Of a stretch of 64,000 nt of DNA, positions 5,923 to 52,532 are shown in pieces. The notes under the pieces were generated by a model. The model did not search any database, was not told where the DNA came from, and was given only the letters and a program-made list of their open reading frames with translations. The stretch's first letter is position 1; the number at the start of each line of letters is the position of its first letter. A program made the position numbers and the translations under genes. This DNA comes from Microlunatus kandeliicorticis (GTDB taxonomy: Bacteria > Actinomycetota > Actinomycetes > Propionibacteriales > Propionibacteriaceae), in assembly GCF_014137855.1 (NCBI RefSeq), contig NZ_JACGWT010000002.1, positions 558,001 to 622,000 of the forward strand, in the 5' to 3' direction.

Positions 5923-6210
5923 GTGCGGCATGAGTTCACCGACGTGCTCTGGTACTGGCGCGGTCTGGCGCCCTGGTACTTCGTGTCGGTGCCCGCGTTG
6001 CTGGTCGAGCAGCTGCACGAGCTGTCGGGCCGTCTCAGCTACGGCTGGGGGATGATCCCGGCCGAGGTCCGGGTCGGACGCACCACGTTCGCGACCGCGC
6101 TCTGGCCGAAGGACGGCGGGTACATCGTCCCGATCAAGGCCGACGTCCGGCGTCGGGAGCACCTCGCCGAGGGCGAGCCGGTGACCGTCGAGCTCACCTT
6201 CGCGGTCTGA
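5923..6210 (+). CDS. DUF1905 domain protein
   Basis: The 95-residue protein matches DUF1905 over its whole length: an aromatic N-terminal strand (WYWRGLAPWYFVSVP), a YGWGMIPAEVRVG core and a C-terminal PKDGGYIVPIKADVR segment. The family is a small beta barrel of unknown function, often found alone or fused to YdeI-like proteins in actinobacteria. Translation starts at GTG 5923, only six bases after CATCAT, a possible -10 hexamer. It diverges from the hypothetical gene upstream and converges with the MFS transporter, whose stop is 5 bases away. Confidence 0.85.
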   Translation: MRHEFTDVLWYWRGLAPWYFVSVPALLVEQLHELSGRLSYGWGMIPAEVRVGRTTFATALWPKDGGYIVPIKADVRRREHLAEGEPVTVELTFAV

Positions 6211-6215
6211 CGTCG

Positions 6216-7358
6216 TCACGCCGGGTCGCCTGACGCGGGACGCTCCGCTCGCGGGGGCCGCAGCGCGCCCGCGCAGAGGAACCCGACGACCAGCAGCGCG
6301 AGGATCACCCACATCGCCTCGAGCAGACCGACGCGTTCGGACAGGGCCCCGATCGCCGGCGGCCCGGCGAGGTTGGCCAGATAGCCGATCGAGGCCACCA
6401 CGCTGGTCCGGGCTGCCGGGTTGGGGCCGCTCTCGGCGGCGGCGGACATCCCGAGCGGGAAGCCGAGCGAGACCCCGACCGCCCAGAACAGGATGCCGAC
6501 CAGCACCACCCAGGCCGGGCCGCCGAGGATGAACAGCACCAGCCCGACCACGCCGATCGCCGTGGTCACCCGGATGGCGGCCACCCGGCCGATCCGGTCG
6601 ACCAGCGGCCCGCCGAGCACCCGGGCCGCGGTCTCGCCCACCGCGAAGACGATGAAGAACGCAGCGGCCACCGCGTCGGTCTGCCGGTGACCGTCCCGGA
6701 CCGCCAGGGTGAGCCAGTTGTTGGCCGAGCCCTCGCCGAGCTCGACGCCGAGCATCACCAGCCCGATGACCAGCAGGCGCAGGTGGGTCCAGCCCGAGAG
6801 CCACTCACGGAACCGCTCGCGCACGGGCGGTCGCTCCTCGGCGGCCTCGGCGGGGACGCCGCTCGGCAGGTGCCGGGCCACCACCAGGCCGACCACCACG
6901 ATCAGCACCGCCTCGGCGGCGAACTGGACCGCGAACGCGATCCGCAGCGCCGCGCACGCCGCCCCGATCCCCGAGCCGACCACCGCGCCCAGGGACCAGC
7001 CGGCGTGCATCAGCGGCATCAGCGTCCGGCCGGCGGCCCGTTCGACCGCGGCGCCCTCGACGTTGATCATCACGTCGAGCGCCCCGATGCTGAAGCCGAC
7101 CACGGCGAAGCCGAGCGCGGTCACCGGCACCGAGTGCAGCGGTCCCGCCCCGACACCGATCAGGGCCAGGCTGACCGCGGTGGCCATCAGCGCGGCGCCG
7201 ATCCCGCGCCGCGGCCCGAAGGTGGTGAAGATCGGCGACGAGGCCAGCAGGCCGAGGACCGCGCCGACCGTGACGCCGGCCAGCACCAGGCCGAGACCGG
7301 CGTTGTCGAGGGCCAGCGAGCTGCGCATGCTCGGCAGCCGCGGCCCCCAGGCGGTCAT
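6216..7358 (-). CDS. MFS transporter (YbjJ-like), N-terminus uncertain
   Basis: This is a major facilitator protein with about eleven hydrophobic helices from the ATG at 7358. It has a Gly/Ala-rich pattern and short cytoplasmic loops such as TFGPRRGIG between helices 2 and 3. The ATG at 7358 lies inside the first helix. In-frame codons upstream to 7413 encode RIGPWRNAVLTAFALGGVT, which looks like the missing start of helix 1 in this family. That upstream stretch, open to 7487, contains no ATG, GTG or TTG. An ATC at 7460 sits 7 bases after AGGAG and just past the stop of the SDR gene, so the true start may be non-standard. It is probably co-transcribed with the SDR at 7462-8226. Substrate unknown. 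Confidence 0.8.
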   Translation of the reverse strand: MTAWGPRLPSMRSSLALDNAGLGLVLAGVTVGAVLGLLASSPIFTTFGPRRGIGAALMATAVSLALIGVGAGPLHSVPVTALGFAVVGFSIGALDVMINVEGAAVERAAGRTLMPLMHAGWSLGAVVGSGIGAACAALRIAFAVQFAAEAVLIVVVGLVVARHLPSGVPAEAAEERPPVRERFREWLSGWTHLRLLVIGLVMLGVELGEGSANNWLTLAVRDGHRQTDAVAAAFFIVFAVGETAARVLGGPLVDRIGRVAAIRVTTAIGVVGLVLFILGGPAWVVLVGILFWAVGVSLGFPLGMSAAAESGPNPAARTSVVASIGYLANLAGPPAIGALSERVGLLEAMWVILALLVVGFLCAGALRPPRAERPASGDPA

Positions 7359-17163: not shown

Positions 17164-17238
17164 AAACGACCGCTCGACCGGCCCGGGCTGCGTCGCCGAG
17201 CGTGGCGTCGCGGTGCGGGACCGGTCGAGCGGTCGTTT
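17164..17238. repeat. 18-bp perfect inverted repeat between helicase and ald
   Basis: AAACGACCGCTCGACCGG at 17164-17181 is repeated as its exact reverse complement at 17221-17238, with 39 bases between. Both arms are preceded, reading outward, by a GCA two bases away. It lies 23 bases after the helicase stop on the minus strand and about 72 bases before the ald start. It may terminate helicase transcription or act as an operator. No run of T follows. Confidence 0.7.
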
Positions 17239-17261
17239 CCTGCGGTGCAGTGTCGGCTCGG

Positions 17262-23267: not shown

Positions 23268-23367
23268 GCGTTCGACACGCTCAGGGCCCTTCGACAGGCT
23301 CAGGGCACCGTGGCCGTTTCGGGTGGCGTGAGCGACCCGACCACGGTGCCCTGAGCCTGTCGAAGGG
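23268..23367. repeat. Repeat pair forming a 27-bp perfect palindromic hairpin between convergent genes
   Basis: The segment at 23287-23313 and its exact reverse complement at 23341-23367 are 27 bases each, separated by 27 bases. The separating stretch itself contains TCGGGT/ACCCGA. Each arm is a copy of the CCCTTCGACAGGCTCAGGG family plus GCACCGTGG. A third, diverged copy (GTTCGACACGCTCAGGG) precedes. The position between the stops of the DHA2 exporter and DUF72 genes suits a bidirectional terminator. Confidence 0.8.
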
Positions 23368-23389
23368 CTTCTGAGTACTCGACGGCGGC

Positions 23390-48063: not shown

Positions 48064-48903
48064 TCAGTCGACCAGCGGGAGCACCAGCTGCGGCGTCTCG
48101 ATCACGTGGTCGGGACGCAGCGGGCGCACCGCGGTGCCGATGGCGAAGAACTCGGTGGTGTGCCCGCCCCACTGGTGCGGCAGCGACAGCAGCTGGACAC
48201 CGACGATGCCCTCGGCCATCAGCTGCTCGGCCTCGGCCTGCATCCGGCTCATGGCCAGCTCACGGGCGTCGTAGAGCGCCTCGGTGAACTGCGGGATCTC
48301 CACGTTCTGGCCGATGTTGCCCATCGACTGGAAGAAGCCCTGGTGGGCGATGTGGTAGACGCAGGTGCCCATCACCATCCCCAGTGGGGCGTACCCGGCC
48401 TGCACCAGGGTCCAGAAGTCCTGCCCGGACAGGTCGGAGGTGAAGGGCTGGTTCTTGTTGTTGCGCCAGCTGCCGCCGGTGGGCGGCGGGTTGTCGGCCT
48501 TGACCGCGGTGCCGACGGCGATGAACTCGGCGATGTCGTTGCCGAACTCCTTGAACTCGATCTCCAGCCGGACCGCGACGATGCCGTCGGCGCCCAGCGC
48601 GTCGGCCTCGGCCTCCATCCGGGTCATGGCGAGCTCCCGCGCGTGGTACATCGCTCCCGACAGCCGGTCGAGCTCCTGATTCTTGCTCCACGAGCGGGCC
48701 TGGAAGCCGACGTGGTAGATGCTCGACCCGAGCACCAGCCCGAGCGGTCGGAAGCCCGCCTCGCGGACCAGCAGGAACTCGTTGACCGACAGGTCGGAGG
48801 TGAACAACCCGCCCTGCGGTCCCTGGCCGCCGCCCGGACGCATGTGGGCCAGCCGGTTCAGCGCGTCGGTCGGGATGCCCATCTCGTTGTGCTGGACGCT
48901 CAT
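48064..48903 (-). CDS. Double YbjQ-type (UPF0145) protein
   Basis: This 279-residue protein contains two copies of a YbjQ-like domain (about 30-140 and 150-270). Each begins with FTSDLSVNEF or FTSDLSGQDF and includes MYHARELAMTRMEAEADALGADGIVAVRLE or its counterpart. YbjQ folds form pentameric rings and are labelled heavy-metal-binding, though this is not proven. It has no membrane segment. The gene is the second in an operon with a sister gene at 48968 and a hypothetical protein at 47583. Confidence 0.88.
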   Translation of the reverse strand: MSVQHNEMGIPTDALNRLAHMRPGGGQGPQGGLFTSDLSVNEFLLVREAGFRPLGLVLGSSIYHVGFQARSWSKNQELDRLSGAMYHARELAMTRMEAEADALGADGIVAVRLEIEFKEFGNDIAEFIAVGTAVKADNPPPTGGSWRNNKNQPFTSDLSGQDFWTLVQAGYAPLGMVMGTCVYHIAHQGFFQSMGNIGQNVEIPQFTEALYDARELAMSRMQAEAEQLMAEGIVGVQLLSLPHQWGGHTTEFFAIGTAVRPLRPDHVIETPQLVLPLVD

Positions 48904-48967: not shown

Positions 48968-49882
48968 TCAGCGGCGGCGGGTCGGGATCATCCCGCCGAG
49001 CGGGACCAGCGTGCGGCTGTCGGTCAGCGGGTGCGCCTGCCGGGTGTACCGGGCGATCGCGGTGCCGACCATCAGCGACTCGGCCACGTGGTCGCGGTGG
49101 TTCTCACCCGGCTCGACCTCGAAGATCCGCAGGGTCATCGCGGACGAGATGAACCCGTCGCTGCGGAGCCGCGCGGCCTGCTCGGCGATGTCGGTGCGGA
49201 CCACGTGCCGGACGTAGGTGATCAGCTCGGTGTAGCCGCTGATCTCGGTGTTGCTCCAGCTGCTGGCCTGGCCCATGGTGCGCCAGTCGTCGTGGCGGAT
49301 GGCGAGGTCGAAGGCGTAGAGCAGGCAGTCGGGCACCCAGCCGGCCAGCAGCAGTTTGGCCACGTCGCTGCCGGACAGGTCGGTGGTGAACGGCCGCGCC
49401 GGTCGGGTTGCCGTGCGGCCGCGGACGGCGGTGCCGATGGCCATGAACTCGCGGGCACCGTCGAGCATGCTGACGCTGAGCCGGATCCCCACCACGCCGT
49501 CGGCGCCGAGCGCGGCCGCCTCCTGGAGCAGCCGGGACAGCGCGGTGCCGTAGCCGCGGCGGATCGCGTCGGCGTACGGCCGGAAGGCGGCGAACCGGCT
49601 GTCGCGGGTGCCGATCACCGGCGGCGGGGTGCTGTAGCCGCCGAGCATCCCGCCGAAGCCGCCGCCGTAGCCCATGCCCATCCAGCCACAGCCGCCGTAG
49701 CCGGACCAGCCGACGCTCTCGACGACGCAGCCCATCACCTCGCCGACGGCGTCGAAGCCGACCGAACCGAGGCCGACGGTGGCGTCCGTTGAGAGCAACG
49801 AGGTGCGGACGCCGTCGGCGCGGGCCCGGTCGATCCGGGCCTGCGCGACCGGAGGCAGCCCCCGGCCGTCCCACTGTGCCAT
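48968..49882 (-). CDS. Double YbjQ-type protein with Gly/Met-rich insert
   Basis: This 304-residue relative of the protein at 48064 has two YbjQ-like domains. One has ALGADGVVGIRLSVSMLDGAREFMAIGTAV, and the second starts at FTTDLSGSDVAKLL. The first domain holds an unusual Gly/Met/Tyr/Cys-rich insert (GYGGCGWMGMGYGGGFGG, near residue 60) with two nearby Cys. This could bind a metal or anchor a pore. It starts at ATG 49882 with GAGGAGG upstream. It is the first gene of the operon and diverges from the ncRNA-like region and the GMC gene. Confidence 0.85.
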   Translation of the reverse strand: MAQWDGRGLPPVAQARIDRARADGVRTSLLSTDATVGLGSVGFDAVGEVMGCVVESVGWSGYGGCGWMGMGYGGGFGGMLGGYSTPPPVIGTRDSRFAAFRPYADAIRRGYGTALSRLLQEAAALGADGVVGIRLSVSMLDGAREFMAIGTAVRGRTATRPARPFTTDLSGSDVAKLLLAGWVPDCLLYAFDLAIRHDDWRTMGQASSWSNTEISGYTELITYVRHVVRTDIAEQAARLRSDGFISSAMTLRIFEVEPGENHRDHVAESLMVGTAIARYTRQAHPLTDSRTLVPLGGMIPTRRR

Positions 49883-50034
49883 CGCTGATCCGCCTCCTCG
49901 GCCGCCCGACCGGACGACCCGCCACCGATCGTGCCACCCGCCCGGGTCGGCTCCGCCGGCACCGCAGCCTCACCTCAGGATTTGCTTCAGAAAGCCGCAG
50001 GATCGGCCACGGACGGGTTGCGCGAAACCTGAGC

Positions 50035-50341
50035 GGATCAGGGGGAAGACCCTGATCCGCACTGAAGGTGGGGGGTCCAGGATGATGGTCATCGGGATCA
50101 AGGGTTCGGGGGGACCCGAGGATCCTGACCGGGACGGTGCTACCGGGGGGAGAGTGCCGTCCCGGGTCTACGTCGGGCGCCTGTGCAGAACGGGGGGACT
50201 GCACGGACGCCCGCGCCGGAGGGAGATCCGGTGGAAGTACGGCCCGGACGGGCCGCGTGGAGAGGGCAGAAGATCGCCGGGTGACTGGGAACCCGGCGAT
50301 CCCAGGTCGAGGGGCCGGGACGTTCGTCGTCCCGGCCCCTC
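50035..50341 (+). ncRNA. Candidate structured RNA: chain of hairpins with GGA/G-rich loops
   Basis: Nine hairpins occur in about 310 bases; most are listed here. Stems and loops: GGATCAGGG (50035-50043)/CCCTGATCC with loop GGAAGA; GGATC..GGGT (50095-50105)/ACCC..GATCC with loop TCGGGGGG; CCGGGACGG (50129-50137)/CCGTCCCGG with a loop containing GGGGGG; GGGCG..GTGCAG (50175-50188)/CTGCAC..CGCCC with loop AACGGGGGGA; CCGGA/TCCGG (50216-50231) with loop GGGAGA; CGGCCC/GGGCCG (50240-50255) with loop GGAC; and GATCGCCGGGT (50272-50282)/ACCCGGCGATC with loop GACTGGGA. It ends in a 14-bp hairpin. A reading frame crosses it but has far more A/T third positions than neighbouring genes. Nearly all loops hold GGA, as in protein-sequestering RNAs. 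The direction is inferred from the closing hairpin and is uncertain. Confidence 0.55.
50309..50341 (+). terminator. 14-bp hairpin ending the candidate RNA
   Basis: GAGGGGCCGGGACG (50309-50322) pairs perfectly with CGTCCCGGCCCCTC (50328-50341) around TTCGT. There is no T-run after it. The GMC start codon is 67 bases downstream, so it could also act as an attenuator for that gene. From 49883 to 50034 I see only the promoter area of the YbjQ operon. Confidence 0.6.
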
Positions 50342-50408
50342 GTCGCGTCCCGGCTCCACGTCGCGTCCCGGCTCCCGGGCCTGCTTCCCCGGCTGCGACC
50401 ATGCCCGG

Positions 50409-52532
50409 GTGAGCGATGCCGCCGACCCCGGAGCAAGCCCGGCAGCCGGTTCCCCGACGACCCCCCTCGAACGGCTCGCGACGCTGCTCGGGCTGCCCGG
50501 ACGGGCCGCCGACCTCGCGGCCCTGCTCGACGAGATCGTGCCGCTCCGGCACCGCGCCGACGACCAGGGGCTGCCGGCCGCCCTGCTCCGGGTGCTCGAC
50601 CAGCGTCCCGACCGACGGACGGCCTGGGCGGCACTGCTGAGCACCGTGCTCGGAGCCGGACCCGGCGCACCGGACCTGCGTCCGCTCGACGACGACCCGG
50701 TCGGACGCGACCTCGCCGAGCTGGTCAGCGCCACCGCCTGGGCCGACCGGGCCGACGGTGGCGACGAGCGGCTGTGGGCCGAGCTGGGCTGGACCCGGTT
50801 CGTCGACGACGTCCGTCCGCCCGAGCCCCCGGTGGTCCCCGGCACCGGCGCGGTGCTCGGCCCCGAGGCGCTGCCCGGGCTCGCCGACCGCTACGACGCG
50901 GTGGTGATCGGGTCCGGCGCCGGCGGCGGCACCGCGGCCGCGCTGCTGGCCGAGTCGGGCCGGACGGTGCTGGTCGTCGAGGCCGGCGCGGCGCCGTCGC
51001 GCGAGACCCTGGCCACCGGTCAGCTGCGGAACCCGCGGATGGAGTGGGGGCTCCCGATGCCCACCCGCTCCGCCGACCCGGCCGACCGGCGAATCCGTCC
51101 CGGTGCGGACGGCACCGGCGAGGCGGAGGTGGCTCCCTGGGCTGGCGGTTGGTTGGCCAACGCCCAGACCCTCGGCGGCGGCACCCGGGTCTACGGCGCG
51201 CAGGCGTGGCGGTTCGGTCCCGAGGACTTCCGGATGGCCGGCACCTACGGCGTCCCCGACGGCAGCGCGCTGGCCGACTGGCCGATCGGCTACGACGACC
51301 TCGAGCCGTGGTACGCGCGGGCCGAGTGGGAGGTCGGGGTCAGCGGCGACGACCGGGCCGGGCCCTACGACGGGCACCGCTCGCGGCCCTACCCGATGCC
51401 GCCACTCCCCGAGGGGCCGACCGCGACCCGGCTGGCCGCAGCCGCCGACCGGGTCGGGCTCGGCGTCCGGGCCGTGCCGTTGTTGATCAACTCGGGCCCC
51501 TACCTCGGCCGCCCGGGCTGCGTCCGCTGCCGGGCCTGCGTCGGGTTCGCCTGCCCGGTCGAGGCCAAAAACGACAGCCGCAACACCATGCTGGTGCGGG
51601 CGCTGGCGACCGGGCGGACCACGGTGATCACCGGCACGCGCGCGACCCGGATCGTCGTCGACGTCCACGGCCGGGCCGCCGGTGTCGCGCTCTCCGCCGG
51701 CCCGGCCGGGCCGCGCCGGGTGATCGACGCCGCGACGATCATGGTCGGCGCGGGCGCGGTGGAGACTGCCCGGTTGCTGCTGGCCAGCGCGCACGACGGC
51801 GAGCCGCAGGGGATCGGCAACCGGCACGACCAGGTCGGCCGGCACCTGCAAGGCCACCTGTACGGCGGTGCGTTCGCGCTCTTCGACGAGGAGGTCGACG
51901 ACCTGCTCGGACCGGGCCCGTCGGTGGCCACCACCGACCTGCGGCACGGCAACCCGGGCATCGTCGGCGGCGGGATGCTGGCCGACGAGTTCACCCTGCC
52001 GCCGGTCAACCTCTACGCCCACCTGGTCGCCCTCGGGGTGGTCCCGCGCTGGGGCGGGGACAGCATCGCCGGCGTCCGGCGCTGGCACCGCCGGCTGCTC
52101 CGGATGATGGGCCCGGTCCAGGAGGTGACCAGCGCCGACTCCCGGGTGCGGCTCGACCCGCGTCGTGTCGACGGTCACGGGGTGCCGCTGGCGGTGCTGT
52201 CCGGGGGACTACACCGCGAGGACGAACGTGGCCGGGCCTTCCTGGCCGGCCGGGCCGCCGACTGGCTCACCGCCGCCGGAGCCGCACGGGTGTTCCCGAT
52301 CGCCGGGCCCGCGGGTCCGGGGCCGAGCGGCGGTCAGCACCAGGCCGGCACCTGCCGGATGGGGGCGGATCCGGCCGCATCGGTGGTCGACCCCGACGGT
52401 CGGGTCTGGGGCCACGACAACCTCTACGTGGTCGACGGCTCCAGCCACGTCACCAACGGCGGGGTCAACCCGGTGCTGACGATCTTCGCCAACGCGATGC
52501 GGATCACCGACCGGCTGGTCCGGGCTGGCTGA
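50409..52532 (+). CDS. GMC-family flavin oxidoreductase with N-terminal helical domain
   Basis: This 707-residue protein has an N-terminal helical domain of about 150 residues resembling the small subunit of gluconate 2-dehydrogenase. It is followed by the FAD motif GSGAGGGTAAALLAESG (near residue 170) and the GMC C-terminal signature HQAGTCRMG (about 648) with DNLYVVDGS and NPVLTIFANAMRI. It oxidises alcohols or sugars with FAD. A Cys cluster, CVRCRACVGFACP (about residues 373-385), has C-x2-C-x2-C-x4-CP spacing that could hold an Fe-S centre. No signal peptide is visible. GTG 50409 gives the best fit to the domain start. The extension upstream crosses the hairpin array. Confidence 0.85.
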   Translation: MSDAADPGASPAAGSPTTPLERLATLLGLPGRAADLAALLDEIVPLRHRADDQGLPAALLRVLDQRPDRRTAWAALLSTVLGAGPGAPDLRPLDDDPVGRDLAELVSATAWADRADGGDERLWAELGWTRFVDDVRPPEPPVVPGTGAVLGPEALPGLADRYDAVVIGSGAGGGTAAALLAESGRTVLVVEAGAAPSRETLATGQLRNPRMEWGLPMPTRSADPADRRIRPGADGTGEAEVAPWAGGWLANAQTLGGGTRVYGAQAWRFGPEDFRMAGTYGVPDGSALADWPIGYDDLEPWYARAEWEVGVSGDDRAGPYDGHRSRPYPMPPLPEGPTATRLAAAADRVGLGVRAVPLLINSGPYLGRPGCVRCRACVGFACPVEAKNDSRNTMLVRALATGRTTVITGTRATRIVVDVHGRAAGVALSAGPAGPRRVIDAATIMVGAGAVETARLLLASAHDGEPQGIGNRHDQVGRHLQGHLYGGAFALFDEEVDDLLGPGPSVATTDLRHGNPGIVGGGMLADEFTLPPVNLYAHLVALGVVPRWGGDSIAGVRRWHRRLLRMMGPVQEVTSADSRVRLDPRRVDGHGVPLAVLSGGLHREDERGRAFLAGRAADWLTAAGAARVFPIAGPAGPGPSGGQHQAGTCRMGADPAASVVDPDGRVWGHDNLYVVDGSSHVTNGGVNPVLTIFANAMRITDRLVRAG

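Follow-up and report, generated by a model that had tools for sequence, protein, structure and literature searches.

A chain of eight hairpins lies at 50033-50342 of the window, by which we mean the whole analyzed stretch of 64,000 nucleotides (C2:558001-622000, in a Propionibacteriaceae genome of 4.3 Mb), between a divergent ybjQ pair (minus strand) and a plus-strand gene for a GMC oxidoreductase. The chain is a real and unusual element, and our tentative reading, held at somewhat under even confidence, is that it is a 6C-like multi-loop noncoding RNA transcribed from the minus strand. It resembles a larger cousin of actinobacterial 6C RNA at a new location, one that fails formal membership. 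The parts of the chain and its neighbors are as follows.

48064-48903, minus strand: YbjQ-domain protein 2, 279 aa (Pfam)
48968-49882, minus strand: YbjQ-domain protein 1, 304 aa, the divergent neighbor (Pfam)
49973-49986, plus strand: 14-base motif CCTCAGGATTTGCT, within the part of the divergent region that is richest in AT
50033-50060: H1, 11-bp stem; loop GGAAGA on plus, TCTTCC(CCC) on minus; on a minus-strand RNA it would be the 3' hairpin, with the tail TCAGGTTTCG
50070-50075, plus strand (C6 on minus): G6 run in the H1-H2 linker
50092-50128: H2, bulged stem in two parts; inner loop TCGGGGGG on plus, TCCCCCCGA on minus
50129-50165: H3, 13-pair stem with two G-U pairs on plus; loop ACCGGGGGGAG on plus, CTCCCCCCGGT on minus
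50174-50213: H4, 13 Watson-Crick pairs plus one G-U and one A-C on plus; loop AACGGGGGGA on plus, TCCCCCCGTT on minus
50214-50233: H5, 7-pair stem; loop GGGAGA on plus, TCTCCC on minus
50240-50255: H6, 6-pair stem; loop GGAC on plus, GTCC on minus
50272-50301: H7, perfect 11-pair stem; loop GACTGGGA
50308-50342: hairpin T, 15 perfect pairs; loop TTCGT on plus, with no T run after it
50409-52532, plus strand: GMC oxidoreductase (Pfam)

Most of the plus-strand loops contain GGA, three of them as GGGGGGA. The preliminary description had claimed stems with GGA or G-run loops, and we located every loop that it named, including a "longer loop," which is ACCGGGGGGAG; the hairpin that it placed at the end is perfect, as claimed, with a stem of 15 bp rather than 14. 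Hairpin T could be terminator-like for a plus-strand RNA or the 5' hairpin of a minus-strand RNA. Read by eye, the loop of H7 could pair with the bases directly 3' of its stem (CCCAGGTC). Directly past hairpin T and ahead of the GMC start, GTCGCGTCCCGGCTCC occurs in two tandem copies (50345-50379).

Structure and G6 content exceed chance

When 401 bases including the chain were folded, as the preliminary description had proposed, the structure proved far more stable than expected on the plus strand (z = -7.5) and on the minus strand (z = -6.7), with none of 100 shuffles equally stable on either. We also scanned the whole window in 300-base segments, correcting for GC content. On the plus strand the segment from 50101 ranked third, the two higher segments (23101 and 23251) both covering one single long inverted repeat; on the minus strand the best segment of the chain (50251) ranked only fourth. 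Single long inverted repeats of terminator-like form, at ~23288-23368 and 17164-17240, are among the strongest folds of the window.

The window holds only about one-tenth of the six-G runs predicted from its dinucleotide composition (12 observed versus 126 expected). Four of these 12 lie on the plus strand within a 128-base stretch of the chain (50070, 50108, 50145, and 50192), where our own arithmetic, based on the other eight runs spread over the remaining 128,000 strand-bases, gives an expectation of about 0.01. A strand-neutral stem score around G6 reached 10.4 and 12.4 for the runs at 50145 and 50192, and it was 5.4 (bulged stem) and 3.7 (linker) for the other two. Scores of at least 10 occurred at 1% of 4,000 random places; among 750 G6-7 runs from further bacterial loci, many of them loci fetched for their G6 runs, 4% scored that high. 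A triple-G6 pattern had two matches in the window against a shuffle mean of 0.03, and 1 of 100 shuffles contained equally many. No G-quadruplex appeared in the best fold with the corresponding option switched on; this option of the fold program limits linker length, and long-range quadruplexes may escape it.

The stems of the chain are mutually unrelated, while the letters of the loops recur, and we therefore take the loops to be the working part. The same loop on unrelated stems is what would be expected of an RNA that acts through loop recognition.

Coding potential and neighboring genes

The chain region is probably noncoding. The GMC reading frame is open from 49779 to 52532, i.e., across the chain, and could in principle lengthen the GMC protein at its N terminus, starting from an ATG at 50083, which is preceded by GGTGGGGGG. 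We regard such an extension as very improbable, because third-position GC is 0.69 in 50083-50408 versus 0.93 in the GMC gene (and 0.96 in both ybjQ genes) and because the GTG start at 50409 seems, by eye, to match the start of the homologue in locus L043.

The 304-aa YbjQ protein had no relative at an E value of ≤1e-20 in the other 196 of the 197 family genomes; two Streptomyces plasmid proteins matched it at 35-45%. Relatives of the GMC protein were present in 18 other genomes of the 197.

Resemblance to 6C RNA

The preliminary description had likened the chain to RNAs of the CsrB/RsmZ type and remarked in passing that the loops on the other strand recall 6C RNA. That side remark is the better lead. 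Suitably spaced triplets of GGGGGGA occurred in 39 of 372 genomes of the order. We took 30 of these loci; in a loop scan L206, L207, L219, and L216 had the clearest hairpin chains, and some other loci had chains that were weaker or of another kind. Ten of the loci were given to Rfam: two matched 6C (RF01066) on the C strand (L206, 60 bits; L207, 52 bits), and the other eight, L219 and L216 included, had no match. Mycobacterial 6C sits between ssd and an HAD-IB hydrolase gene. Beside L219 lie homologues of the HAD and ssd genes that accompany L206 and L207, and this locus was therefore taken as 6C by place. Because the order-wide GGGGGGA search thus led to hairpin chains in other families, two of them 6C on the C strand, we consider 6C the closest kind of RNA.

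The likeness consists of hairpins with UCCCCCC loops on one strand and of a G6A pattern that the chain shares with the two Rfam-confirmed cases. The wording of the loops is alike (GATCCCCCCTC and TTTCCCCCCTC in L206 versus GTCCCCCCGA and AGTCCCCCCGTT in the chain), in letters that the search pattern itself required. By the account of 6C in PMC4046766, this RNA has two stem-loops, typically with six C, and the C. glutamicum version is ~100 nt long and transcribed under all the conditions reported there. The minus strand of the chain carries C6 in the loops of H2, H3, and H4 and in the linker. As described in PMC10470900 for B11, the 6C RNA of Mycobacterium abscessus, either C-rich loop is enough for repression of a target whose 5' untranslated region contains six guanosines.

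Several features set the chain apart from 6C. It has eight hairpins and four C6 runs, whereas 6C has two to three hairpins; it lies at ybjQ/GMC rather than at ssd/HAD, where L206, L207, and L219 lie; and it fails the RF01066 model, which had no match in the whole window at the gathering score, nor in 49850-50450 up to an E value of 5 on either strand. L206 and L207 have a T run after the last hairpin; on the minus strand of the chain, the H1 tail has three Ts in a row. Rfam leader and riboswitch families gave only subgathering matches in 49850-50450, the best of which, CC3664 of Caulobacter, covered H7 and T on the minus strand, at 27.3 bits (E = 0.016) against a requirement of 60.

In this genome the HAD homologue lies 77 kb away (C2:685774-686505), beside an ssd homologue (38% identical), and between the two genes we found no C5 or G5 run and no Rfam match up to an E value of 1. 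Canonical 6C was detected in none of 20 genomes of the genus, in a search whose control was positive in C. glutamicum only, and there below the cutoff.

Search for relatives of the chain

The chain has a single full-length copy in the genome. In a blastn search of the 361-base region against the 197 family genomes, the matches listed were, apart from the region's own locus, only pieces of ~18 to 54 bases, and many of these corresponded to the GC-rich hairpin T with its tail; sequence searches of phages gave nothing, and those of plasmids gave one 36-base piece. A covariance model of H2 to H5, built from one sequence (148 positions), found its own locus and, in eight other genomes of the 197, matches at E values of 0.08 to 0.62, which on inspection looked like chance, L069 perhaps excepted. 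At ~1465-1575 of that locus, from a family genome, a G-loop hairpin (TGATCGGGGGGCATC) is followed by a T-tailed terminator, a possible small RNA. Triple-G6 matches occurred in at least 68 of 198 family genomes, many of them being low-complexity runs or tandem repeats; we took 30 loci and 8 stretches and folded 12 of these. One candidate, in a genome of the same genus (G074), was rejected, its G6 runs reading as a ribosome-binding site plus Gly codons of a gene that adjoins a response regulator, with a leader fold z of -0.10.

The window stretch from HerA to dnaX (47.0-59.0 kb) holds a block made up of the ybjQ pair, the chain, the GMC gene, a DoxX-like protein, and an SDR. In G074, HerA (75% identical) and dnaX (86%) are kept in the same order, and the ~25-kb interval between them yielded no ybjQ relative; a GMC relative (54%) is located 35 kb beyond. 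A pair of C6 runs stands ~4 kb before the dnaX of G074, in weak hairpins near a tRNA-like stretch. Judging from these comparisons, the HerA-dnaX block and the chain appear lineage specific in what was searched.

Which strand would be transcribed

We compared how accessible the runs would be on either strand. The predicted probability of being unpaired was 0.90, 0.72, 0.75, and 0.87 for the C6 runs on the minus strand and 0.52, 0.66, 0.67, and 0.84 for the G6 runs on the plus strand; the run at 50070 had 0.52 on plus and 0.87 on minus. C6 was also more accessible than G6 in L207 and L219, and the two were practically equal in L206. Wobble pairs favored the plus strand, with G-U against A-C at 4 to 1, or 5 to 1 when H2 was included by eye. 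This test weighs little, because the G strand of the three 6C loci scored 3 against 3; the corresponding counts were 0 against 1 for L216 and 1 against 4 for L195.

Neither strand showed a terminator or promoter consensus. In the 30-base windows from 49960 and 49980, ahead of the 5' end that a plus-strand RNA would have, AT reaches 0.43 to 0.47, the highest of the region; the sequence ahead of a minus-strand 5' end is GC-rich (AT, 0.17 to 0.23). The 13-base core of the motif in the AT-rich stretch, CTCAGGATTTGCT, occurred once each in 4 of 20 genomes of the genus, and a control pattern occurred in none. In relatives the motif lies upstream of, and points to, lsr2 (L111, G018) and an alpha/beta hydrolase gene (L114/L103, G074). 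The core is also present at L113, and at L111 its sequence has the form of a direct repeat, CTCAGG-N5-CTCAGG; it is perhaps a regulator site or part of a promoter.

Competing explanations

We lean toward the minus strand, in the tentative sense given above, over the plus strand, which we consider possible but doubtful. An RNA starting at ~49990-50010 on the plus strand, and either continuing into the GMC gene or stopping shortly ahead of it, would be either a 5' leader of the GMC gene, with T as an attenuator hairpin, or a free decoy whose GGGGGGA loops bind C-loop RNAs or the anti-Shine-Dalgarno sequence. The wobble pairs, the AT-rich stretch with its motif upstream of the 5' end, and hairpin T at the 3' end all point this way, as does the lack of any other visible GMC promoter, the 66 bases from T to the GMC gene being GC-rich and without a promoter consensus. 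Against a plus-strand RNA stand the missing T run after T, the partial burial of the G6 runs on this strand, and the GMC-homologue loci fetched from relatives, none of which has such a chain. The suggestion that the chain might lead the GMC gene, made in the preliminary description, could thus hold only for a private feature. The free plus-strand RNA, taken by itself, strikes us as improbable. Its three GGGGGGA loops would be exact complements of 6C-type UCCCCCC loops, and it could serve as a multisite sponge or imitate G-rich ribosome-binding sites; we know of no RNA class that uses G6 loops this way in these bacteria, a narrow literature search for sponge RNAs or RNAs with G-rich loops found no such paper, and no partner C-loop RNA was found in this genome.

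A set of palindromes acting at the level of DNA, as a binding, recombination, or replication-related site, would not need transcription at all. Every stem is nearly perfect on both strands, and within the scope of our searches the HerA-dnaX block is specific to its lineage, a pattern that a mobile insertion could produce. We judge this explanation unlikely: repeated loop letters on unrelated stems fit recognition of single-strand loops better than recognition of a duplex, the chain is present in only one full-length copy, and none of the seven neighboring proteins given to Pfam was an integrase or transposase. Kinship with CsrB, the main comparison of the preliminary description, is unlikely, and an RNA of the CsrB/RsmZ type that sequesters CsrA through GGA loops is the least credible of the explanations. 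The chain does share with CsrB and RsmZ a series of hairpins with repeated GGA in the apical loops, on its plus strand only, where most loops bear these letters; it differs in having three loops of G6 instead of single GGA. CsrA (PF02599) was found by Pfam in none of 20 genomes of the genus, with 3 of 14 controls positive (E. coli, B. subtilis, and T. maritima), and no CsrB/RsmZ-type model was among the seven Rfam matches up to an E value of 5 in 49850-50450 on both strands.

For a 6C-like RNA from the minus strand speak the structure and loop repeats that exceed chance, the unrelated stems that share a loop, the 6C wording, the accessibility of the C6 runs, the absence of 6C by the tests used, and the B11 precedent. 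Against it count the failure to match RF01066, the wobble pairs, the GC-rich sequence upstream of the minus 5' end, the H1 tail with three Ts only, the lower minus-strand rank in the fold scan, the failure of the searches to find a homologue, and the weak control of the 6C search.

A putative multi-loop 6C-like RNA

The minus-strand RNA that we infer would extend from ~50345 to ~50015, in the direction of the ybjQ operon, and would fold into the eight hairpins. Three of these would present C6 as UCCCCCC loops, with a fourth C6 in a linker and shorter C-rich loops (UCUUCCCCC and UCUCCC) elsewhere. By analogy, each C6 would pair with a ribosome-binding site of the GGGGGGA type and block translation, so that one molecule could silence several messages with G-rich leaders. 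The chain would then stand in for canonical 6C, which is seemingly absent from its usual locus here.

Regulation by small RNAs is poorly known in actinobacteria, and 6C is among the few conserved RNAs there with an experimentally supported mechanism (C-rich loops acting on G-rich leaders, in mycobacteria). If our reading is right, a relocated and multiplied 6C in a genus in which 6C was not detected would suggest that selection keeps the loop and not the scaffold, and the chain would be a naturally occurring variant with many loops, on which effects of dose and multivalency could be tested. If instead the plus strand is the right one, the chain could be a first sign of RNA decoys against C-loop RNAs.

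Other elements with C6 or G6 loops

A further element occurs in the HerA neighborhood of Streptomyces (L132, L134, L143, L151, L152, and L156). Like the chain, it has strong hairpins with UCCCCCC/GGGGGGA loops and is near HerA; unlike the chain, it has two hairpins and lies on the other side of HerA, in intergenic sequence ~3.7 to 5.5 kb before that gene. In five of these six loci (L152 was left out), no Rfam family matched the element at the gathering score.

Two loci of the order that are not 6C by Rfam carry long hairpins of their own. At L216 (~1500-1590), a G6A linker and a pair of long hairpins with loops of the TCGGGGGGAT type lie before an aromatic-acid-exporter/FUSC-like gene (Pfam) that is encoded on the C strand, and at L195 (~1460-1720) about five long hairpins are joined by linkers that contain GGGGGGAC on one strand and GTCCCCCC on the other. 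Two viral contigs, L276 (~6100-6220) and L314 (~2100-2220), showed in the loop scan several consecutive hairpins sharing the loop CGTTTGGGG.
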